In this document: positions 6,564 to 51,721 of the stretch, one piece after another
Numbering within the stretch: the stretch's first letter is position 1
Layout: every line of letters begins with the position of its first letter
From: Pirellulales bacterium
Lineage (GTDB): Bacteria > Planctomycetota > Planctomycetia > Pirellulales > Lacipirellulaceae
NCBI GenBank assembly: GCA_022448265.1
Contig: JAKVCC010000020.1
Coordinates: 1-64,000, forward strand
Direction: 5' to 3'
Length of the DNA stretch: 64,000 nt
The notes under the pieces: model-generated
Seen by the model: the letters and a program-made list of their open reading frames with translations, nothing else
Database searches by the model: none
Told to the model about the DNA's origin: nothing
Made by a program: the position numbers and the translations under genes

Positions 6564-8519
6564 ATGACTTCTCCTATTCGCGCATATTCTCTGACGGTCG
6601 TTGTACTCGTAGCCAGTGCAGCGGGTTGCGCAAGCGCGTCAAACAAATGGGTGGCGCTTCGCACAACGCCGCGCAACCCACTTACCGAATCCTTGGGGCT
6701 ACTCACGCGCCAAGGGCCCAAACCAACCACCCGGACTCTCCAGTGGATCCGTCGTTACGATTTGGAAGATGACCTGAACAACAATCGCCCTGGGCTATTG
6801 GCCAAATTGGCCATAATCGACCAGCAGGAGCCTCACCGCGAGAACGCTTATGCCATGGCCGAATTGGCCTACGTTGGCGCAAAGCAGGCAGAACTTTCCA
6901 AACATAGCAGCGAGGCGTTGGAATTGTACGGATCCGCGGTGCTGCACTCCTATCGTTACTTGTTCGATGACAATTACGAAGTGGCTTCCAATCCTTATGA
7001 TCCCGAATTCCGCCGCGCCTGCGATTTGTACAATTCTGCCCTGGAAGGCGCGCTGCGCATTGTTCAGGCGCAGGGCAACTTGCGGCCCGGTACGACACAG
7101 ATCATCCAAACGGCCAATCACCAATGCCGTTTAGAGATTCAACTCAAGAGCGATGACTGGCAGGAGGACGACTTTCACGAGTTCCAGTTTGTTTCCGACT
7201 ACGAGGTGCATGGACTCCGCAACCGCTACCACAACTATGGCCTTGGTGTACCACTCATTGCGGTGCGCTCAAAGCACGTGGGCATGTCCGGCAGCGAAGA
7301 GTTCTATCCGCAAGACCTGTCTTTTCCGGTTACGGCTTTTTTGCGTGTGAATACGGAAACCTCGACCAACTCGCCGATGCAACACGCCGTCCTGGAACTC
7401 CACGATCCGCTGGAAAAACCGTCTGTGCGGATTGCCTCAGTCGAAATACCACTCGAAACGGACCTTAGTACGCCCCTTGCGCACACGCTCAACCAACCTT
7501 CTCTTGACGACTCGCGACTCTCTACGCTGGGTCTACTCAAGCCCGAAAAGGCCGAAGGGCTCCGCGGCCTCTACATGCTCGAACCTTACCAGCCCGACAA
7601 AATCCCTGTCGTTATGGTACACGGCCTGTGGTCAAGCCCGGTCACTTGGATGGAGATGTTTAACGATCTGCGCAGCGATCCACAGATACGAGAGTACTAC
7701 CAGTTCTGGTTCTACCTCTACCCGTCGGGACAGCCGTTTTGGTTCAGTGCAGCCGCAATGCGCAAAGACCTTGCCCACATGCGCGAATCGCTCGACCCCA
7801 CCAATGTGTATCCGGCCCTTGATCAAATGGTACTTGTGGGGCATAGCATGGGCGGCCTAGTATGCAAATTACAGACCATCGATAGCGGCAACGATTTTTG
7901 GGACGTGCTGAGCGAACAGCCATTTACTCAGGTGCAAGCGGATGACGAGGTTCGGACCGGACTTGCCCAGACTTTTTTCTTTGATCCCAACCCGTCGATT
8001 CGGCGCGTCGTCACCATCGGAACACCCCACCGGGGCAGCGACTTCGCCAACGACACAACGCGATGGCTGGGACGTAAACTCATCAAGATCCCCAGCAGAA
8101 TCATGCAAGGCCGGCATCAGCTCATCGCGCGCAATCCGGGCTATTTCCGCGCTAGCGCACCCCTGAACGTAACGACCAGCATAGGCTCCTTAGACCCCAA
8201 GTCGCCGCTCTTTCCAGTGCTGCTCACAGCCGAACAGGGTTCGTGGGTCAAATACCACAACGTTGTGGGCGATACACCGAAAAAAGGCATTTCTAGTTGG
8301 TGGGACAAAAGCAAGGGTGACGGGGTCGTTTCGCTGACGAGCGCGCACCTCGACGATGTGCAATCTCAAATCGTCGTACCAGCTCAGCACAGCGGTGTGC
8401 ACCGTCATCCGCAAAGCATTTTAGAAGTCCGTAGAATCCTAGTACAACACCTCGCAGACTTGCGCACCTTCCCTCACAAAGTTGCCAGCGAGGAAAAAGT
8501 TGTGGGCAGCAGCCTGTAG
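6564..8519 (+). CDS. Lipoprotein-like alpha/beta-hydrolase (lipase class)
   Basis: A 651-residue probable exported hydrolase. The N-terminus is a hydrophobic signal ending in a weak lipobox, AAGC, followed by Ala-Ser, so it may be lipid-anchored. The hydrolase domain is in the C-terminal half: VVMVHGLWSSPVTW gives the oxyanion-hole strand and GHSMGG the nucleophilic serine elbow; TPHRGS is typical of triacylglycerol lipases and PGAP1-like proteins. The first 300 residues form a large helical and beta region of unknown role. It is monocistronic, with the next gene convergent. Confidence 0.85.
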   Translation: MTSPIRAYSLTVVVLVASAAGCASASNKWVALRTTPRNPLTESLGLLTRQGPKPTTRTLQWIRRYDLEDDLNNNRPGLLAKLAIIDQQEPHRENAYAMAELAYVGAKQAELSKHSSEALELYGSAVLHSYRYLFDDNYEVASNPYDPEFRRACDLYNSALEGALRIVQAQGNLRPGTTQIIQTANHQCRLEIQLKSDDWQEDDFHEFQFVSDYEVHGLRNRYHNYGLGVPLIAVRSKHVGMSGSEEFYPQDLSFPVTAFLRVNTETSTNSPMQHAVLELHDPLEKPSVRIASVEIPLETDLSTPLAHTLNQPSLDDSRLSTLGLLKPEKAEGLRGLYMLEPYQPDKIPVVMVHGLWSSPVTWMEMFNDLRSDPQIREYYQFWFYLYPSGQPFWFSAAAMRKDLAHMRESLDPTNVYPALDQMVLVGHSMGGLVCKLQTIDSGNDFWDVLSEQPFTQVQADDEVRTGLAQTFFFDPNPSIRRVVTIGTPHRGSDFANDTTRWLGRKLIKIPSRIMQGRHQLIARNPGYFRASAPLNVTTSIGSLDPKSPLFPVLLTAEQGSWVKYHNVVGDTPKKGISSWWDKSKGDGVVSLTSAHLDDVQSQIVVPAQHSGVHRHPQSILEVRRILVQHLADLRTFPHKVASEEKVVGSSL

Positions 8520-8879
8520 GCCGCCGGCTATCGGCCGTCACCGTTCTTCAAAGCCACAGGCAAGTGCTCGCATCTAATTACTGTGCCAGATTATTCGCGG
8601 CTTGTGCTAGATCAGAGGTGACCGCAATCTGCAGCCAACTCTTGCTACCCGGTACCACTAAAAACTATTAAATCACAGTTCAATCTGCAACGAAAGCGTG
8701 CCCGTTAAGGCCTAATAAATGTTGCTGGCTGCTCCATAGCAGTCGCCCCCCCATCGCAACTCAATAAGTGCGACTTTGTGATTGCGGTGATTGCAGACAA
8801 AGAGTCTTCCAACGTGGTCTTATCGGCCTTGTGCACCAAGAATCCTCTGTGCCAGCGATAGTACTTCGTCGCCAAACGA
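8520..8879. other. Convergent intergenic region, nothing recognised
   Basis: The stretch separates the 3' ends of the hydrolase gene and the second csrA. Open frames here are short and without family resemblance, and I see no strong hairpin with a T-run. Confidence 0.5.
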
Positions 8880-9083
8880 TCAGCCTGCCTCGCACAAGAC
8901 ATCTTCTGTGTCAGCTGCTTCCGCTGCGGGCAACTCAAACTGCAACTCGCCACGAATAACACTCACGTTATGCGGCGCTTCAATTCCGAGTCGGATCGAC
9001 TTACCCTTCAGCCGTAATACCGTAATGGTAATTGAATCTCCGATGCGGATTTTCTCATTCTGCTTGCGTGTAAGAACCAACAT
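8880..9083 (-). CDS. csrA: Carbon storage regulator CsrA, canonical-length paralogue
   Basis: This 67-residue protein has the full CsrA fold: it starts MLVLTRKQNEKIRIGD and keeps the VIRGEL segment with the RNA-contacting arginine. Its length is standard. The ATG at 9083 is chosen because AGGGAG sits 7-8 nt upstream and because MLVLTR is the invariant CsrA start, although the frame stays open to 9206. The protein differs from the first copy throughout its middle (ITITVLRLKGKSIRLGIEAP), so the two are old paralogues and not a recent duplication. They may regulate different mRNA sets. Confidence 0.95.
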   Translation of the reverse strand: MLVLTRKQNEKIRIGDSITITVLRLKGKSIRLGIEAPHNVSVIRGELQFELPAAEAADTEDVLCEAG

Positions 9084-9739
9084 ATCACACTCCCTTTGTT
9101 GGTAATGAAAAGTTTCTCTTCCGTAGAAAAGCTGACCGCGCCGGTAATTCGCGGTGACACGTAGAAACAATACGCACACTTCATACCAAGGGTGCGATAA
9201 TTGCAAAGATCACTGCGCAAACAGTGACACTGCAATGATTTACGCCTCACGACAGACTGACAGCATGCACACCTGGCGAGTGAACTTTTGCCAAGTAATT
9301 GTAAATGTTCCCTCGAAAACAACTGGCGTAAAGATGGAAACTGACAACCTCATTCGCAAAACGGCGCTTGCCCTCAACATGCCGCGGCAAGAAATAAACA
9401 ACCGTATCGCCCTGTGTGCAACTGTTGCGCAGCAACATCATTAATACTTTGCCAACACACTGCTTAACGAATTTCAGGACAAATCTCACCCGCAGAGCAC
9501 TCATCCGACCGGCACAGTGCTAGTTCTATTACAACGCAACTCACACGGACGGTCGCTCCGATCCCTCCTGGTGCTGCTGGCAGAGACAACACCGCACACT
9601 GTCAGGCGTCAACAGTATCGCCCCCTCGAAGAGTTGCCTTGGCAATTGATCCTGGCAAGAAAGACAACAAGGGGGCTGAAAAAGACGGGAACGCGTGCCC
9701 TGCAACCGAAACCCAAAGTTTGCGATTGAAACGCTCGCC
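9084..9739. other. Long intergenic region upstream of second csrA
   Basis: About 650 bases without a convincing gene. A short inverted repeat (ACCGCG at 9135-9140, CGCGGT at 9150-9155) lies in the csrA leader. A plus-strand frame at 9154-9444 overlaps the csrA promoter region and looks unlike a real protein. Confidence 0.5.
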
Positions 9740-10483
9740 TCACTTCCCCCCATGCCGATCATCCATTCGATCACGGAGCTCCGCGGCCAACTCATACTGT
9801 TCTGCTTCAATAGCGCTAGCCAATTGCTCGGCGAGCGACGGGCCCAATTCATATTGCTCGATAATCGAATCTCGCATCTCACGTAGTTTGATCACGAAAG
9901 TATCTTTGTCAAAATACTCACTTGCATCGTACTTCTCAAAGACCCCCACCAAATCCTGGAGCCCCTTGTCAATTTCAGCAGTCGCTGCACTGGGATCGCT
10001 TTGCTCAAGTTCGATCAGCGCAGCAGCCTGGATCTTGTGAAACATGACGAATGGGCGGTACTGCTCATGCAGCTGCGCCCAATCAGAATTAGGAGCATAC
10101 GCCAAACTAAAATCCATCAGTGACAATGTGTGCTGTGCGTCTTTCATCGCTTCTGGATACTTTTTCAATGTCAGCCAACAAATGCGCCGGTGATAGAACT
10201 GATAAAATTCCCTATCTATTTCGTTGCAGCGATCCTGGTCCAGCTGGTACGATTCGCCCTCGGCGAACGAAAGTGAGAGCAGGTAGTCGAAGTAGGTATC
10301 AAACCCTTCGGGCTGGACTCCATCCGGCCGCCCTGTCACCTCCATCTGTATCATCCCCATGTCGATGCGCATTTGGAGTACGTCTCGCCCATCGGCCCCC
10401 TGAATCTGACGCACGAGAACCTGACCGAGAGAGAAAGGCCAGTCGGCAAGTAGATGGTCAAACGAATGTGGACTTTTCGACAC
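9740..10483 (-). CDS. UVR-motif protein of unknown function
   Basis: A 247-residue soluble protein. The only recognisable element is a C-terminal UvrB/UvrC-type helical hairpin (UVR motif), residues about 213-245, with EQLASAIEAEQYELAAELRD. In UvrB and UvrC this motif mediates protein-protein contact; it also occurs in McsA and in stand-alone regulators. The N-terminal 200 residues contain no nuclease or helicase motif that I can see. It lies between hemerythrin-like and csrA genes on the same strand, with 134 bases to the former. A role in excision repair should not be assumed. Confidence 0.8.
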   Translation of the reverse strand: MSKSPHSFDHLLADWPFSLGQVLVRQIQGADGRDVLQMRIDMGMIQMEVTGRPDGVQPEGFDTYFDYLLSLSFAEGESYQLDQDRCNEIDREFYQFYHRRICWLTLKKYPEAMKDAQHTLSLMDFSLAYAPNSDWAQLHEQYRPFVMFHKIQAAALIELEQSDPSAATAEIDKGLQDLVGVFEKYDASEYFDKDTFVIKLREMRDSIIEQYELGPSLAEQLASAIEAEQYELAAELRDRMDDRHGGK

Positions 10484-10617
10484 CAGTTCACAGGGGCAGA
10501 GGATCTGACGTAGGATACCCGTGGGGCAACATATCGCTTCGGAGCGCCCCTTACTATTGTACCCTATGGCGAGCAGCGCTGAAGAGCCGGTGGCATAAGA
10601 AACCCGGCCAAAAAAGC

Positions 10618-11067
10618 CTATCCCTCGCCCCCTTCATCGCAAAGCAGCGTCTCCTGCATCAGATCGATCTCATCTACGTCGTGCTTATCGATTCGCTCTA
10701 GAAGCTGGCGAATGTTCGAGCAAACGTCTTCAAACTCGTCGTTCTGGTGCTCGCTAAGTGCCTCAACCTCGGGCAACAGATTGCGGATCTCACAGCGGAA
10801 CAAATCGTGTTCACGCTCGAGATGCTCCACTCGGAGCAACATATTTGGCTTGGCCTCAGCAACAAACACCATGTATCCGTCCCGCTCCTCCAAATCCATC
10901 ATGCGTTCGAGATGACGCTGAAACGCCTTAAGTGCAAACTGCACACTGGAGAGTTTGCGTGACAATCCTACCGAAGGAACCTTCCAGTCAAGCGTCACAC
11001 GTAAGGCATCCTTCACGTGGTCCAACATTTTGTGTTCCATCCAAGCCCCGTTGGCCTGTGTCCGCAT
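10618..11067 (-). CDS. Hemerythrin-like (HHE) helical protein
   Basis: This all-helical 149-residue protein resembles planctomycete hemerythrin-domain proteins. Possible iron ligands are spread along four helices: FQRHLERMMDLEE, LEREHDLFR and DKHDVDEIDLMQE near the end; the C-terminus is GGEG as in relatives. Hemerythrins bind a di-iron centre and sense or store oxygen. Not every canonical ligand can be assigned by eye, so metal binding is unproven. The second of two ATGs (11067) is preferred because AAGGAG lies 5 nt before it. Confidence 0.65.
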   Translation of the reverse strand: MRTQANGAWMEHKMLDHVKDALRVTLDWKVPSVGLSRKLSSVQFALKAFQRHLERMMDLEERDGYMVFVAEAKPNMLLRVEHLEREHDLFRCEIRNLLPEVEALSEHQNDEFEDVCSNIRQLLERIDKHDVDEIDLMQETLLCDEGGEG

Positions 11068-11684
11068 GTGTGCTCCTTGCATGATTTAGCCCTCCATAAT
11101 CTAACTGCATGGCGCGAGTTCGCTGGCCACACGACCAAGACGCAGCGCGCCAAGATACGGCCCACCACTACTGACGTGCACGCCAGCACTCCGTCATGCA
11201 GGTGACAAAATCGTCCCCCTCGTTCAAAATTCCTATACTGAAATCCCTACACTGTAGTACGACTTCGGAGTACGATTCCGAGTCCTTAACCTTCGACACT
11301 AGTTTAGAACCCGGATTTAGCCTGAGCCCCGAACCTTCAGGGACCCAAATCTTCAGAAACTCAGCGGCCATCCCCCACAGACTCGGCCAATCACAAGACT
11401 CGTCACCGCTGACGGCCCAAAGCCGCCCGGCCTTCGCATATGAGATCAACTATGAGGTACGTCAGAAGTATGAGCGAAAACCACGCCGACGAGGCCATGT
11501 ATTGTAGCCCAATTCCGGCTATCTGCAAACCATTCCACCCAACAGCGGGGTAAAACAGGCACCTGAGATCGTAGGCCAGGCCTTTGCCAGTACAGTTTTC
11601 GACCAGTTCAGCGCTTGGTCGACTAGTGGCAGGCTACCCGGTCGAATTGGTGCCGAAAAATCCAGCGCCGATGGTACCATCTGG
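11068..11684. other. Intergenic region with two doubtful overlapping frames
   Basis: Frames at 11168-11449 (minus, 93 codons) and 11196-11507 (plus, 103 codons) overlap almost completely. Neither has a clear ribosome site or a family resemblance, so at most one is real. A degenerate direct repeat, TACGACTTCGGAG followed by TACGATTCCGAG, is visible near 11260. Confidence 0.4.
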
Positions 11685-31599: not shown

Positions 31600-32661
31600 T
31601 TATTGGGCAGATGCCCGCGTGCCCCGCGACGACACCCTAATGGCAGTACCAGGCTGCAAGGGCCGGATCGCTACCGCGTAGCTCATTTTCCATAACGCGC
31701 TTTTGAGAATGCGAAACTCATCGAAACTATCGATGTAGAGCCACACCACCACCGGCGCTCTGGTGCGACGATTATCTAATAAATGGGAGTGCAGGGCGGC
31801 ACCCGGCATGAGTGCTTGCTCGACATTCTGACCGATCTTCTCAGAATTCGGCAAGAAGTCGCCCTCGTAGACATAGCGGCTGCGCTCCAACTGGCCCATC
31901 AAGGGTCCGCTTACCGCGTCTGGAGGCCGAGATTTTTGCACGACAAATTTGAGCCGGTATCCATCGATGGGGCCAAATACGTCCTGAATTCCCTCGCGGG
32001 TGTGCAGTCGTCTGCGCATATCTCCTAGGTGGTTTTCCACCTCGTTTTGTAACTGACGAAAAGGCACAACCGATACCAGGCCATGACGAAGTCGCAAATG
32101 AATGGCCTCGCCGTCGACTTCTTTGGCAAGCGGAGTCGGCACGCTCTCCACTTCGACTGTACTTGGTGTAGAATCGATCGCGAGCTGCTCTTGCATCATC
32201 TTTTCCAACTGCAATTGCGACTCTACAAGTTGTCGCTGAACATCGAACTCGCGCGTGCGCACGCTGTCAAGTTTTTCGCGACGATTGGCAATGTCTTCTT
32301 CGACCACTGTACGGTGCATGGCAAGCGCGATCCTCTGTCGATCCAGCGCAACGGCCTCGCTGCGAATTGCACTCGCGCGACGGGTCGTTTGACGAACCGT
32401 TCGCCTTGATGCCAATGCTTGCTCGGTTGCTTCTGCCAGTTCCTGACGCAGTTTTTCCACATCCTCCTCGGAAGTCACATTTGAGTGCTTAGCCGCATGG
32501 CCACTTAAAGACGCGTTTTTCAGTACGCTTTGCGAAGCCTGCAATCCGACAATCATTACCAGAATGATGAGCACGCCTACCACATTAGCAACCACATCCA
32601 AAAACGAGTCCTGGCCCGTTTCGTCCGCTACAATATTTCTGCGAGACCTATCGTAACTCAT
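31600..32661 (-). CDS. Single-pass ExbD/MotB-like stator subunit with coiled coil
   Basis: This 353-residue protein has one transmembrane helix near its N-terminus, FLDVVANVVGVLIILVMIVGL (residues 20-40), in the arrangement of ExbD, TolR and MotB, with Asp22 at the position of the proton-binding aspartate. A coiled coil of about 100 residues follows (E/Q/R-rich, 65-170), then a C-terminal alpha/beta domain without an OmpA peptidoglycan motif that I can recognise. It is the third gene of an overlapping operon: its ATG lies 14 bases inside the preceding gene. Function of the complex is unknown; see findings. Confidence 0.7.
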   Translation of the reverse strand: MSYDRSRRNIVADETGQDSFLDVVANVVGVLIILVMIVGLQASQSVLKNASLSGHAAKHSNVTSEEDVEKLRQELAEATEQALASRRTVRQTTRRASAIRSEAVALDRQRIALAMHRTVVEEDIANRREKLDSVRTREFDVQRQLVESQLQLEKMMQEQLAIDSTPSTVEVESVPTPLAKEVDGEAIHLRLRHGLVSVVPFRQLQNEVENHLGDMRRRLHTREGIQDVFGPIDGYRLKFVVQKSRPPDAVSGPLMGQLERSRYVYEGDFLPNSEKIGQNVEQALMPGAALHSHLLDNRRTRAPVVVWLYIDSFDEFRILKSALWKMSYAVAIRPLQPGTAIRVSSRGTRASAQ

Positions 32662-34522
32662 GATCGGTCTCCTGTTGTGCGGTCTCTAGGATACGGACTT
32701 CGACACCGCTTCCTCGCAAAAGACGCTCAACTTCAATAGCGGAACGTCCGGCATCGGGACCGACGTTGAGCTGCAGCACCGGTCGCCAGACCAGCCCGCT
32801 GCCCGCCAACCCCCAATCTTTCATCCGGTTTCTGAGTGCGATATTTATTTTTTCTGCGATCTGCCCGCGCGATTGATTAAGTGAGATCTCAATTCCCGTC
32901 GCTCCAACACCATGCGTTTCGTGGCGGCTCGGCAACAACGCCACATGATCGCGGCGCACGACGATGTGAATCGTCCGGCGAATCGGCACTGATCGCTGCG
33001 GACCGGTAGGTGCGGGTCCAGTACTGCCTTGCGGTTCCGCGATGCTTGCCATTTGGCCAGCCCCAACGCTGGAGGTACCCCGCGAAGAACTGCCTGTCGC
33101 TGACGACCCAGGTGCGCTTGCCTGTTGATCGTTTTCACCGGATGCGCCCTTGGAACCTACAGCGCTACCAGGTGTGCTCGCCTCTCCACCGGATGCATAA
33201 CGGTCGGCGCTGCCGCCCAGCTGACTACCACTGGATCCTAACTCAGAAGGCTCGGCAACGCCTAGCGCTGGCTCGGACCCACTAGCGCCCGTAATACCCC
33301 CGGCGCCATCATCGGTCGCAGATGAGCCAAGGGTCACGCCATCTGTATTTGCTTGCTGCCCAATCGGTCCTTCGCTTCCCGCCAGAGACGTATCGCCCGG
33401 CAGGGATGCGGCACCGTCGGCGGCAACCCCCACTGCACCTGCTGCGCCTAAGAGCCCTTCGCTGCTACCCCGGCCGTCGCCACCTCCTCTCCATCCATTG
33501 GGCCCAACGCCACCGGCTCGGCCACGCGCGGCCCCATCTGCGCCAAACCCTTGAAATTGACTTGGGGCCGATTGCACCAAACGTTCTAATCGCTGCCGGG
33601 CAATGAGCAAGGCATGTTTTTGAGCACGTGCAAGCTGCGGATCTGGGAGTTCCGGAAACTCCAACTGCCAATCACTATTAATAAACTCATAACCGAAATC
33701 CGCATCCCAGGATCGGATCGCGGCGCGTGCCTGGGCATATTGAAGGAGGCCGTCGGGGCGAACGAGAATCAAAGGGTAGGGATCGGGCGGCTCCGCATCA
33801 TGGCCCTCTCGGGCTGCTTTCGCCTTGAGATATTCCCTGGAAGCCCGCAGGGCTGCTGCCAGGGGATTTCCTGGCCAACTAGGTGCAAGGAAGTCGCGCT
33901 CTTTGAGCCGTATGCCTTCCGGGTGCAGAATGATCCCTTTTTGACTGCATTCGATATAGATTGGTTTGCGATACGTGCCGTGCGGTCCTTGGTAAGGTAC
34001 GATCGCATATGATTTCTTTGCTGCCGGCTGTAGCCGCATGTCGTCAAGGCGCGCTTGCGTTTCCTCGATAAGACGCCGCAATCGTTCGAGTTCTCCAGCC
34101 GCCTGATCCTGGTCAACGGACTGGTTTTCCTCGGTGGCGTCGAGCTGCTGAGCGGCAATAGAAAGTTGGGACAGCTCATATTCCAGACGGCGGGTGTGCT
34201 CTTCGAGGTGGCTCAGGCGCTGCTGCTCCTTGCCCAACTGCTGCTGGGCCTGTCGATGCAGTTCCTTCAGTTGCTGCCGATACTCCCGAACTTCAGCAAG
34301 CTGAACCGCGAGAGTGGCTGCAAACTGCTTGTGTTGATCCGCATCAGCGAGTGGCTGTGCGGCACAAACCGCCGGAGCTTCTGAATCCAGAACAAACCGT
34401 TTTCCGGCACGCTGCGCCATGACGATCAGCAGCACCAAGAGGGCTCCCATCGTGCAGAGCAGAACGGCAAGAAAGGGAAACAGGCCCGCGTCCGAATTCT
34501 CGCTGGTCGTGTGGTCACTCAT
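32648..34522 (-). CDS. Second single-pass stator-like subunit with Gly/Ser-rich linker
   Basis: A 624-residue protein with an N-terminal hydrophobic helix, LFPFLAVLLCTMGALLVLLIVM (residues 14-35), aligned to ExbD/MotB TM segments but with Ala19 where the catalytic Asp would stand. A coiled coil follows (about 60-165), then a globular region with YAIVPYQGPHGTYRKPIYIEC, then a long Gly/Ser/Ala-rich low-complexity stretch (about 325-510), and finally a C-terminal domain. Its ATG overlaps the upstream TGA by 4 bases (ATGA). It is not an ordinary ExbD, since it is five times as long. Confidence 0.68.
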   Translation of the reverse strand: MSDHTTSENSDAGLFPFLAVLLCTMGALLVLLIVMAQRAGKRFVLDSEAPAVCAAQPLADADQHKQFAATLAVQLAEVREYRQQLKELHRQAQQQLGKEQQRLSHLEEHTRRLEYELSQLSIAAQQLDATEENQSVDQDQAAGELERLRRLIEETQARLDDMRLQPAAKKSYAIVPYQGPHGTYRKPIYIECSQKGIILHPEGIRLKERDFLAPSWPGNPLAAALRASREYLKAKAAREGHDAEPPDPYPLILVRPDGLLQYAQARAAIRSWDADFGYEFINSDWQLEFPELPDPQLARAQKHALLIARQRLERLVQSAPSQFQGFGADGAARGRAGGVGPNGWRGGGDGRGSSEGLLGAAGAVGVAADGAASLPGDTSLAGSEGPIGQQANTDGVTLGSSATDDGAGGITGASGSEPALGVAEPSELGSSGSQLGGSADRYASGGEASTPGSAVGSKGASGENDQQASAPGSSATGSSSRGTSSVGAGQMASIAEPQGSTGPAPTGPQRSVPIRRTIHIVVRRDHVALLPSRHETHGVGATGIEISLNQSRGQIAEKINIALRNRMKDWGLAGSGLVWRPVLQLNVGPDAGRSAIEVERLLRGSGVEVRILETAQQETDHELR

Positions 34523-36012
34523 GCGGCCTGGTTCTTATTGCACGAGTCATCCTTATCCGTCAAATGGACAGGTTGACTCAGGCGAGCTCCCAGAACCTGC
34601 ACGGCTGCCGATAGAGCTGCTGCAGTTTCCCGGAAGCTATGAGCACCCGCCAACGCATTGAGATTACTGTTCAGGACATCTTCGAGCTGTTTAATCTGCC
34701 CAGTCGCCTCGACAACCTTCAACAAAATATCGCCTTGCTTCATCAGTTGCTCTTGCTGTGCCACAGTCGATCCTGCGGCTTCCACCAAAGCCACTTGCAT
34801 CTCTTTGAGCAGTATTTCGCTCTGCTCGATCAGATTCTCTTGCCGTGAAGTAGCGACGAGCATTGCCTCGCCGACAGCCGCTTCCACCTCAGCCAAATGT
34901 TGGCGGTTCTCTTGAGCAAGTTCTTTTTCTGCATCGGTCAGCGCTTGGCGATGGTGTTCCATGGTCTTCGCAAGTACCGAAGTATGATGCGCCAAACCTT
35001 CGTTGAGCAGTTCTGCGTGGCGAATGAGTACCTCTTCAAGCTCGCCAGCATGTGCCTTGACACCTTCGTTGAGAGCCTCGGCATGTCGCGCCAGCCCTTC
35101 AACGACTGCGCCTGAAAGCGCCTCGTCCAGAGTCGACGCAGTACTTGCCAAGAGGTCGGTCCACGCCTGACCGTTTTTTTCCATGCCGGTTTCTACCGCG
35201 ACCAGCAACTGTTCCGACATACGGCAAACTGACGCCAGATAGGGGTCATTCTCCGTACCGACCTGCTGAAAACGGCCGACCATCTGACGGCACGTATTGG
35301 CGTCTACGGCAGCAAGTAGCCGGATCTCAATACGTTCGACACAATACTTCATGAATAGCAATACGGTCGAAAGCGATAGCGCCAAAGCGGTCGTATCAAA
35401 CGCAACACTCAAGCCAGAAACGACCGCCGGCAAAGACTTTTCCATGGCGTCGCCCGACAGGTTCATTTGGCCAATGGCAAGCGTGATGCCAATGACAGTT
35501 CCCAAGAATCCCAAAATCGGGATCGTCGACAGGATAATTCGTAGCATGCCATAACTGTGATGCATGCTGGATAGGTCATTGTCTTCCAGGTGCCGCAAGT
35601 GCGGATCGAGGCCATCCACAGACCGTTTTTGCAAGACGTACTGCAGGGTCTCGCGAAGCCGGCGGACCAAGTAGCTGTCTTGCAGCGACGCAGGCGAGTC
35701 CTCCAGGCTGCGCAACAAATCTGGAACATTGTCCACCGTTTCGACGCCAGCAGGCGGCGTAGGTAGTTGAACACTCTTGAGCGTTGCACTCTGGAGACAA
35801 ATACCTAAGAACTTTATAACCAGCGCAGCAAGCCCCACGAAAAACAAGGCCGTCGTACAATACGCTATCGGGTGTCCTGCAAAGTAACGCTGCAGAAAGT
35901 CGCCCTCCGGCGCACCCCGTACTACGAGGGCATAAAATGCAAGGCACGCCAAGCCTCCCCAAATGAAGGACTGTCGCAATAACCATTCGGAAAACGAAGT
36001 TATGCGTGACAC
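34519..36012 (-). CDS. MotA/TolQ/ExbB-like proton channel with long helical tail
   Basis: A 497-residue membrane protein. Two hydrophobic helices near residues 17-74, then a cytoplasmic part, then two helices (about 160-184 and 197-225) with ILGFLGTVIGITLAIG and LPAVVSGLSVAFDTTALALS, the conserved part of MotA/ExbB. A long C-terminal helical tail of about 260 residues follows, with repeated HAEALNEGV/HAELLNEGL-like segments, as in ZorA. The first in-frame ATG is at 36021 but is directly preceded by AAAGG; the GTG at 36012 has AAAGGA with 8-nt spacing and is taken as start. Confidence 0.82.
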   Translation of the reverse strand: MSRITSFSEWLLRQSFIWGGLACLAFYALVVRGAPEGDFLQRYFAGHPIAYCTTALFFVGLAALVIKFLGICLQSATLKSVQLPTPPAGVETVDNVPDLLRSLEDSPASLQDSYLVRRLRETLQYVLQKRSVDGLDPHLRHLEDNDLSSMHHSYGMLRIILSTIPILGFLGTVIGITLAIGQMNLSGDAMEKSLPAVVSGLSVAFDTTALALSLSTVLLFMKYCVERIEIRLLAAVDANTCRQMVGRFQQVGTENDPYLASVCRMSEQLLVAVETGMEKNGQAWTDLLASTASTLDEALSGAVVEGLARHAEALNEGVKAHAGELEEVLIRHAELLNEGLAHHTSVLAKTMEHHRQALTDAEKELAQENRQHLAEVEAAVGEAMLVATSRQENLIEQSEILLKEMQVALVEAAGSTVAQQEQLMKQGDILLKVVEATGQIKQLEDVLNSNLNALAGAHSFRETAAALSAAVQVLGARLSQPVHLTDKDDSCNKNQAA

Positions 36013-36021
36013 AGCAAGCAT

Positions 36022-49271: not shown

Positions 49272-50243
49272 CTACATCCCTAACCAACGCCCCACCGTGC
49301 GCCTCGCCTGGCCGACGAGCTTTCCCGATAGTAGGTCTTCGGTAATCGTTGTCTTGTCTGTGGAAAAATTTCGCCAAACGGCATCGACGTAGGGCTGGCT
49401 CGTCTCGGCTAGCGTAGCGTAATAGCCCTTAGTTTCGATGTCACTCAAAGCCGTCCGGTAATGGTCGACCACATGCCGATCAAACAGGCGTCCGACCGCG
49501 CGTGTCGAAGAAAGCGCTCCGCGACCAATCGAAGCCACCCGATCAAGCGAATGAAGCGCCATGGCGCTCGAAACCTCAAACAGGCTAACCTCCTCGTGGG
49601 CGGCAATAGCCTGCATCTCATTCCACATACGCTCCACCTCGGCCTGGGGTAGTACCTGTGTGGGATCGATCTCGCCAACCGCCGACTTGGTTTGCTCGAT
49701 CATTTCGCGAAGACCGTCCACCGAGATGGGCGGTGTGTTGAAAGCCGCCGCCGCAACACCTGAGGCCTTGCTGACCGCTGCGAGCAGATCGCTGGTGCGA
49801 TCAATTGTCGTGTCGGCGTCGATCACACCTTCGCGTTTGAGCTCGCTGGTGAGCTCGTTGAGATAGGTTTGCGAGCCGTAGGCGATGTCGCTAACCACTG
49901 CAAGAAGCATCATTGGTGAGACGTGCAGCGTTGCCAAACCGGCCATTTCTACGAAGTTACCGACCGTCTTCCTTGCTACAAAATCATCGATAGCAGGCTC
50001 ATCTACGCTAGATTGCTGCTCCGCAGCGACGCCCCCCACGTCCTCTGTCAGAAATTTTAGCGTCTCACCAACCAAAATTGAGTAAGTCTTGCTATCTTGA
50101 AATGCTTGAGGCACCAGCAGCGCGGCCGACTCGCGAATAGCCCCCCCGGCAACGCCGGTGGTCGTCCGCAAGGCTCGCTCTGGTAGACTCAGAGTATAGA
50201 GCAAGTAATCGCGAACGGACTTGGACGGTTGGCTTTCCGACAT
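49272..50243 (-). CDS. Conserved hypothetical protein at the end of the zwf block
   Basis: A 323-residue, mostly helical protein without a recognised domain. It has a polar N-terminus (MSESQPSKSVRDYLLYT), a Gly/Ala-rich segment (TTGVAGGAIRESAALL) and a moderately hydrophobic stretch ASGVAAAAFN; no clear signal peptide. Its start is 23 bases after the zwf stop, so it may be co-transcribed with zwf. I cannot assign a function; similar proteins seem to belong to planctomycetes. Confidence 0.65.
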   Translation of the reverse strand: MSESQPSKSVRDYLLYTLSLPERALRTTTGVAGGAIRESAALLVPQAFQDSKTYSILVGETLKFLTEDVGGVAAEQQSSVDEPAIDDFVARKTVGNFVEMAGLATLHVSPMMLLAVVSDIAYGSQTYLNELTSELKREGVIDADTTIDRTSDLLAAVSKASGVAAAAFNTPPISVDGLREMIEQTKSAVGEIDPTQVLPQAEVERMWNEMQAIAAHEEVSLFEVSSAMALHSLDRVASIGRGALSSTRAVGRLFDRHVVDHYRTALSDIETKGYYATLAETSQPYVDAVWRNFSTDKTTITEDLLSGKLVGQARRTVGRWLGM

Positions 50244-50266
50244 AATTAAACTTTCGAGCTAAGTGC

Positions 50267-51721
50267 TCATCCCAGTACCGGGCACGTATCAAACCACTCG
50301 CGACCCTGCTTCAGCATCCATTCCCGACACTCGTCGGGCCCCCAAAATCCGGCATCATACATGAACAGGGAAGGGCGGTCGCTGGTTCGCCACGCTTCCA
50401 ATATCGGATCACAAATGCGCCATGCCGCTTCAACCTCGTCAGCGCGGGCAAACAGACTGGCATCACCTTCCAGGGCATCGAGCAAAAGTCGCTCATAGGC
50501 TTCGGGCATCGAGCCGCGAAACTCCTTATAGTAGTTAAACGTTAGGTGGGTTTGCCGCATCCGCATTCCGGCGTCGGGCACTTTGGTTTGAAAGTGTACT
50601 TGGATCCCCTCGGCGGGCTGCACCTGGATTACTAGCCGGTTGGCCTCGCCTAAATCACGCGGACTGTCGGCGAACAATTTGTGCGGCGGTGCATGAAATT
50701 GAATCACGATCTGCGTCGTCCGGCACGACATCCCCTTGCCACTCCGCAAATAAAATGGGACACCCTGCCAGCGCCAGTTGTCAACCGCGAGCTTTATCCC
50801 AGCAAAGGTTGCCGTACGGCTTGTGGGTTCTACTCCCTCAGCGGACGTGTAACCTCGGTACTGACCGCGAAACGTATCCTCGGCAACATGTCGCGCCGTG
50901 AGCGGACGAATCGCATTGAGTACTTTCACTTTTTCATTGCGGATGGCGTCTGCTTCATAACGCACAGGCGCCTCCATCGCGGTCACCATCAAGAGCTGTA
51001 GCAAGTGGTTCTGTATCATATCGCGCACCACCCCCGCTGAATCGTAATACCCAGCGCGACTGCCGACATCCACCGCCTCGGCCACAGTAATCTGGACATG
51101 ATCTATGTAGTTACGGTTCCAAATCGGCTCATAGATCGTATTGCCAAAACGCAGCACCATCAAATTCTGCACCGTTTCCTTGCCCAAGTAGTGATCGATT
51201 CGATAAACCTGATGTTCGGAAAATACTTGGTGCGTCGCCCGGTTGAGATCCTGCGCACTGGCCAAGTCCGTACCGAACGGTTTTTCGACGACAATCCGGC
51301 GTGCCCCTAAGTTTTCATCTGCTAGTCCTGAACGCCCCAACTGCTCAATGGCTGGCTTGTAAAACCGTGGAGCAGTCGACAGGTAGTAGAGTCGGCTGCA
51401 ACGCGTGCACCCTTCGATCTCGTCCAAAAACTGGCTCAGCGACTGAAAGTCTTGCTCTTTGCCGATGTCGCCTTGATGATAGTAAATCTGCTTGGCGAAC
51501 TTGGCCCACTGTCCGGCGTCGAATTTTTCGCCCGCGAACTCCTCCGTGGTCTTCGCCAGCGCCGAGCGCCACGCGTCATGCGAAAATTCAGAACGCGAAA
51601 AACCAACCAAACGCAGTGGGCCCTCAATCCGCCCTTTCCGAAAGAGTTGATAGAGCGCGGGAACGAGTTTGCGGCTCGTAAGATCGCCCGATGCCCCGAA
51701 GATCACGATTGTAAAGGACAT
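50267..51721 (-). CDS. zwf: Glucose-6-phosphate 1-dehydrogenase
   Basis: Zwf oxidises glucose 6-phosphate to 6-phosphogluconolactone, making NADPH. The 484-residue protein has the N-terminal IFGASGDLTSRKLVPALY nucleotide-binding motif and the active-site RIDHYLGKETVQN with the catalytic histidine and lysine. It belongs to a same-strand block with gnd, giving the oxidative pentose phosphate pathway; the gene for the intermediate lactonase is not in the block. The upstream 122 bases contain degenerate short repeats. Confidence 0.97.
   Translation of the reverse strand: MSFTIVIFGASGDLTSRKLVPALYQLFRKGRIEGPLRLVGFSRSEFSHDAWRSALAKTTEEFAGEKFDAGQWAKFAKQIYYHQGDIGKEQDFQSLSQFLDEIEGCTRCSRLYYLSTAPRFYKPAIEQLGRSGLADENLGARRIVVEKPFGTDLASAQDLNRATHQVFSEHQVYRIDHYLGKETVQNLMVLRFGNTIYEPIWNRNYIDHVQITVAEAVDVGSRAGYYDSAGVVRDMIQNHLLQLLMVTAMEAPVRYEADAIRNEKVKVLNAIRPLTARHVAEDTFRGQYRGYTSAEGVEPTSRTATFAGIKLAVDNWRWQGVPFYLRSGKGMSCRTTQIVIQFHAPPHKLFADSPRDLGEANRLVIQVQPAEGIQVHFQTKVPDAGMRMRQTHLTFNYYKEFRGSMPEAYERLLLDALEGDASLFARADEVEAAWRICDPILEAWRTSDRPSLFMYDAGFWGPDECREWMLKQGREWFDTCPVLG

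Follow-up and report, generated by a model that had tools for sequence, protein, structure and literature searches.

A central question about 5:2 ion-driven rotary motors is whether they require both acids of the B-subunit dimer, and it is also raised by a three-gene locus found in a window of 64,000 nucleotides from a Pirellulales bacterium (contig JAKVCC010000020.1, positions 1 to 64,000 of the forward strand). The sequence-only reading of this stretch had described three overlapping minus-strand genes at 31600-36021, encoding a stator-like channel protein, A, and two dedicated B-type proteins, B1 and B2. The ORF check returned exactly these coordinates. The A subunit (500 aa) occupies 34519..36021 (-), the B1 subunit (624 aa) 32648..34522 (-) and the B2 subunit (353 aa) 31600..32661 (-); A and B1 share 4 bases (34519-34522), B1 and B2 share 14 bases (32648-32661), as had been read. 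The coding reality of A, B1 and B2 is beyond chance, since their reading frames are conserved at ~25-73% identity over dozens of genera. In its own genome, A is present as a single copy together with three other ExbB-type genes, according to a genome search. Apart from generic coiled-coil matches, no Pfam, NCBIfam or PADLOC family was found for either B1 or B2.

When the trio was sought in other planctomycetes, the stator-like A and its two dedicated B proteins proved to be conserved as a unit; the lack of such conservation, which would have refuted the first reading, was not observed. Of 59 related genomes, 58 contain a relative of A (only a generic ExbB in one or two of them), and relatives of B2 occur likewise in 58. 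The same-strand order A-B1-B2 is displayed by 75 of the 80 loci collected and the identical 4-base A/B1 overlap by 54; the loci lacking this order correspond to contig ends or to an A located elsewhere (L103, L104, L106). The B2 profile matches 120 of the 148 sampled Planctomycetia genomes. In a phylum-wide sample it matched 27 of 246 genomes, all strong matches lying within Planctomycetia, and full-length B1 is, like B2, essentially limited to this class. The trio is wholly absent from 15 f23 genomes and from two further ones (G077 and G123), and a scan of genome contigs using A as the query gave a single locus, in Bythopirellula polymerisocia. No gene is conserved adjacent to the trio across families; no helicase or nuclease partner, already noted as absent in the first reading, was seen beside it, nor any other class-wide neighbour. 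MreB was considered as a partner and discarded, as true MreB (E <1e-50) is present in f22, G049 and G063, is not found in the other trio-bearing genomes tested and displays no correlation with the trio. No earlier description of the trio was found in the papers searched, which is weak evidence given that most subscription journals fall outside the coverage, and term searches did not find the trio genes in the main text of the Planctopirus limnophila essential-gene study (PMC10632474).

The A subunit was expected to be a MotA/TolQ/ExbB-like channel with a 260-residue helical tail. The Pfam MotA_ExbB model (PF01618) indeed matches its residues 124-225 with 41.9 bits (E 1e-10), above the gathering score of 22.9. 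The pore helix TM3 (IPILGFLGTVIGIT, 35464..35544 (-)) displays near-invariant P168, G171, L173, G174, T175 and G178, while D209 and T211 are conserved in the pore helix TM4 (GLSVAFDTTALAL, 35344..35424 (-)); P168, GTV and T211 are the pore motifs found near-invariant among the relatives of A. One relative (L201, the A of G071) has eroded pore motifs (GLLGSALLTAMT, ALDPT) and yet adjoins B1 and B2 proteins with the usual motifs. The cytoplasmic helical tail, of about 260 residues (34522..35304 (-)), is conserved among relatives, gives weak matches to the ZorA2 profile and to PDB 8vvi_F, and terminates in a conserved motif, LExxLNxNLxALA...F.ET...L.AA..LL, at about residues 446-477.

The resemblance of the tailed A to ZorA, also proposed at first, is weak: the PADLOC ZorA2 profile gives a weak match (E 1.5e-8) that includes part of the tail, and the scores are far below the NCBIfam cut-offs, the best NCBIfam ZorA model reaching 15.9 bits against a cut-off of 700. 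Zorya ZorAB likewise joins a long helical cytoplasmic tail on A to a motor-like core (PMC11890865). It is however a 5:2 complex with one kind of ZorB, bearing a Pal-like wall-binding domain, and with linked effectors, none of which is seen in the trio (PMC11890865). The ZorB models match neither B1 nor B2, no ZorB, ZorC, ZorD or ZorE is found alongside, and the distribution is that of core-genome genes. It is extremely improbable, notwithstanding the ZorA2 match, that the trio is an anti-phage motor of the Zorya type whose effector genes have disappeared. Membership of the Zorya systems was rejected on the missed ZorA cut-off and the lack of a linked ZorB or effectors.

The two B proteins were predicted to be single-pass coiled-coil proteins, and structure prediction agrees, with one N-terminal membrane helix each followed by long helices. 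B1 consists of a short N-terminus, a membrane helix (LFPFLAVLLCTMGALLVLL), a coiled coil, a domain D1, a Gly/Ser-rich disordered linker and a second domain D2. The helix itself (LFPFLAVLLCTMGALLVLLIVMA) lies at 34415..34483 (-). The periplasmic coiled coil (residues 61-164, 34031..34342 (-)) is predicted as long helices with pLDDT mostly >80, D1 (residues 171-290, 33653..34012 (-)) as an alpha/beta fold, and the linker (residues 329-508, 32999..33538 (-)), whose length differs among relatives, as disordered with pLDDT <50. D2 (residues 511-615, 32678..32992 (-)) resembles the ExbD periplasmic domain: VIA-align superimposes it on 8vgd/8p9r with a Z score of 7.6 and an rmsd of 2.6-2.7 over 69-71 of 72-74 residues, a score that ribosomal protein S11 and other unrelated folds equal. 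A profile comparison at 98.1% shows D1 to be homologous to D2. B2 is simpler in its predicted structure, with a membrane helix (SFLDVVANVVGVLIILVMIVG), a coiled coil (residues 65-162, 32176..32469 (-)) and a single periplasmic alpha/beta domain (residues 180-345, 31627..32124 (-)) for which structure comparison found no clear match. Foldseek gave no significant match for the whole B1 and B2 models, and positive-inside counts indicated no clear topology.

In the profile comparison, B1 and B2 match each other with 97.8% probability (E 8e-13) over the membrane helix and coiled coil, and the membrane helices alone align without gaps over 21 columns at 62%. On this evidence B1 and B2 are paralogs. 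Their relationship to known B subunits is more distant. The Pfam ExbD/TolR model (PF02472) matches neither protein with E values allowed up to 1, and the genome search likewise gave no match to it at C13; profile-profile comparison of B1 and B2 with ExbD yields at most 19%, and the full-length comparison gave no match. The OmpA Pfam model, representing the MotB-like wall-binding domain, is also without a match in either protein at the E limit of 1. The ExbD/MotB-like N-termini that had been attributed to both proteins can thus be retained for B2, which has the Asp, and only partly for B1, which has none, with neither matching PF02472.

The first reading had overlooked this asymmetry of the Asp. 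The B2 membrane helix (SFLDVVANVVGVLIILVMIVGLQ, 32539..32607 (-)) carries Asp22 (32596-32598) as the putative ion carrier, and its invariant columns are D18, D22, N26, V28 and G29. The corresponding position of B1 is Ala19 (34466-34468); the column may be equated, from the register of the motif, with the ion-carrying Asp of ExbD, MotB and ZorB. B2 has Asp at this position (DSFLD) in 80 of 80 loci. In the 79 B1 proteins read, the residue is Ala 67 times, Thr 3 times, Ser and Gly twice each and Asp 5 times (non-Asp in 74 of 79). Both members retain the Asp in those ordinary tandem ExbD pairs of this genome and of related ones that were read.

The reading for which we see an even chance is that of an A5:B1:B2 ion motor with a single ionisable leg, in which B1 doubles as a force arm. 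The three proteins would assemble in the inner membrane into one MotAB/ExbBD-like complex, with five A subunits surrounding a heterodimer of the B1 and B2 membrane helices. Ions, most likely protons, would cross the A ring through the single Asp22 of B2, while B1 would fill the second helix position with Ala and leave one of the two legs ionisable. Torque, if the complex rotates, would reach the periplasm through the coiled coils of B1 and B2 and through their ExbD-like domains. The disordered linker and D2 of B1 could then act as a built-in arm replacing a TonB/TolA-type protein, and the target would most likely be some part of the Planctomycetia cell wall or outer membrane.

B1 could instead sit outside the A ring. 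The trio would in that case be an ordinary A5:(B2)2 motor and B1 a TonB/TolA-like transducer, whose helix is packed against the outside of the ring and hence needs no Asp. TonB and TolA provide a precedent, as they attach to the edge of the motor and not to the pore (PMC12204202); the long flexible linker and C-terminal domain of B1 are those expected of a transducer, and the trio lacks a linked gene for a separate one. The B1 helix is nevertheless extremely conserved in a B2-like register and lacks the SHLS motif of TonB/TolA-type transducers. In addition, a tree of B1 from which the membrane helix was left out requires at least four changes to Asp at the exact homologous site, nested among Ala-bearing relatives and accompanied by a particular type of A; such changes would make little sense outside the pore and leave the external position rather unlikely.

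The A type in question, A_II, forms one strongly supported clade (100*) within A, marked by His in TM3 and by Asn replacing D209. All Asp-bearing B1 proteins co-occur with it, including that of a sixth genome (G014), and Asp is found in B1 at 0 of the 74 other loci. In genus g2 (L071:9845-13780, L072:6512-10123), a degenerate native A with destroyed pore motifs lies beside A_II in one operon. The constant association of Asp-bearing B1 with A_II and the degenerate native A of g2 suggest that the native A ring was replaced by a foreign A_II and that the second Asp came along. The covariation amounts to at most four events and is not significant (p 0.25 in a sign test over the starred branches); the direction of the change at the B1 ion site would follow from parsimony. 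An exceptionless association of A D209N with Asp in B1 was also considered and dropped because of L191, where an ordinary A has Asn at D209 all the same.

The family f21, probably Gemmataceae, presents the trio without its motor. B1 is retained in 31 of 31 genomes and B2 in nearly all, with no true A: the best A matches range from 1e-21 to 1e-37, versus 1e-82 to 1e-154 in genomes with a genuine A, and where read they are members of a different A-B pair. In almost every one of these genomes the B1 profile match begins past the membrane helix; at the five loci read, the helices bear no relation to the stator motif and A is not found alongside. The joint loss of A and the stator helices is what would be expected of parts that cooperate. 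That B1 and B2 persist when A is gone indicates that the periplasmic parts have a role independent of the motor. The same retention is what would be anticipated if B1 and B2 were mainly a periplasmic structural element or a tether to peptidoglycan or outer membrane, the motor being either a degenerate channel or an accessory of secondary importance that can be dispensed with. This is a very unlikely account of the trio, as the A pore motifs and the B2 Asp are strongly conserved in the other lineages, which is unexpected for a degenerate channel. Elsewhere in f21, a tailed A-like protein (430-512 aa) adjoins a single B (L172:7953-10314, L173:9581-12093, L176:8670-10910) whose helix (GEDSFVAVVVTKLTGALLFILLL) has Ala in place of Asp and a Lys within the helix.

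The A5:B1:B2 arrangement may be extended to the whole class, at a level that we regard as tentative and somewhat doubtful. Planctomycetia would possess a PMF motor based on an obligate heterodimer in which one Asp alone carries the ions, advancing by five and not ten steps per turn, with the inert partner serving as force arm; the replacement of the A ring by a foreign subtype would have been accompanied by the return of the second Asp, and one lineage would have kept the periplasmic machine only. The class offers what appears to be a natural experiment, comprising a one-acid rotor, lineages having the second acid along with a different A ring and a motor-less lineage with the periplasmic parts. 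An envelope role is plausible, no more, in view of the wide periplasm and budding division of Planctomycetia (PMC11958385, PMC10632474). The trio is a candidate envelope machine of a class whose division and wide periplasm remain poorly explained.

The conserved and somewhat ZorA-like cytoplasmic tail of A might alternatively belong to a tension- or wall-gated channel or sensor, in which B1 and B2 sense the envelope and the tail signals to the cytoplasm, as proposed for ZorAB. Both the ZorA tail and the wall binding of ZorB are needed for Zorya defence (PMC11890865), and a dimer with a single Asp could make a poor rotor. We consider a sensor of this kind unlikely: no effector gene is linked to the trio, and its class-wide, mostly vertical retention is unlike that of mobile defence systems, with no plasmid match found for B2.

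A last point of the first reading concerned known motors, which were said to have one A and one B type. This proved incorrect, as two B proteins are found in AglRQS, in the tolR-like pairs of the PVC group and at two loci of this very genome. The AglRQS gliding motor of Myxococcus xanthus has two ExbD/TolR proteins beside a TolQ-like A, that is, one A and two distinct B genes per operon as in the trio (PMC3169522). AglQ (162 aa) and AglS (194 aa) both match PF02472 (PMC3169522), whereas B1 (624 aa) and B2 (353 aa) miss this model and have additional domains as well as coiled coils, the Asp being absent from B1. Heterologous tolR-like pairs have been described in the PVC group, and the clusters of tolQ with such a pair and a vWA transducer are similar to the trio in their B pair (PMC12204202); unlike these clusters, the trio has neither a vWA nor a TPR gene as a conserved neighbour. 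The planctomycete ExbB-ExbD-ExbD loci also contain one A and two tandem B genes. They differ in their ExbD proteins of about 150-190 aa, with a TPMID or TPMVD motif and a PF02472 match, and in their short A (231-299 aa frames) devoid of a long tail. Two of the three other ExbB loci of the present genome have two ExbD genes; those on G000 C7 (about 50179-51635) and C8 (about 104779-106122) contain one ExbB and two different ExbD, both with Asp. One A with two B proteins is thus already known, and the trio differs in the size and domain build of B1 and B2, in the PF02472 miss and in the one-sided loss of Asp.

The asymmetry is shared by a group of paralogous zinc-ribbon trios (L108, L109, L111, L178, L179), in which B1' has Ser (LFPFLS) in all five cases read and B2' has Asp (DSLLD/DALLD) in the four whose B2' was read. 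They are unlike the present trio in their B1' of about 270 aa, without a second domain, and in the N-terminal zinc ribbon of their A. Their A' lies at about 8400-11200 in each of the five loci, and relatives of these trios also occur outside Planctomycetia (G376, G396). Other paralogs (L110, L113, L180) have Asp in both B proteins. At L113:7545-18014 and L180:3308-14353, a short A and two Asp-bearing B genes (FQD, LLLD) are followed by a gene for a small protein and by three larger ones, two encoding about 900-1000 aa and one about 450 aa; the whole looks like a multi-gene system of its own, perhaps of the conflict type.
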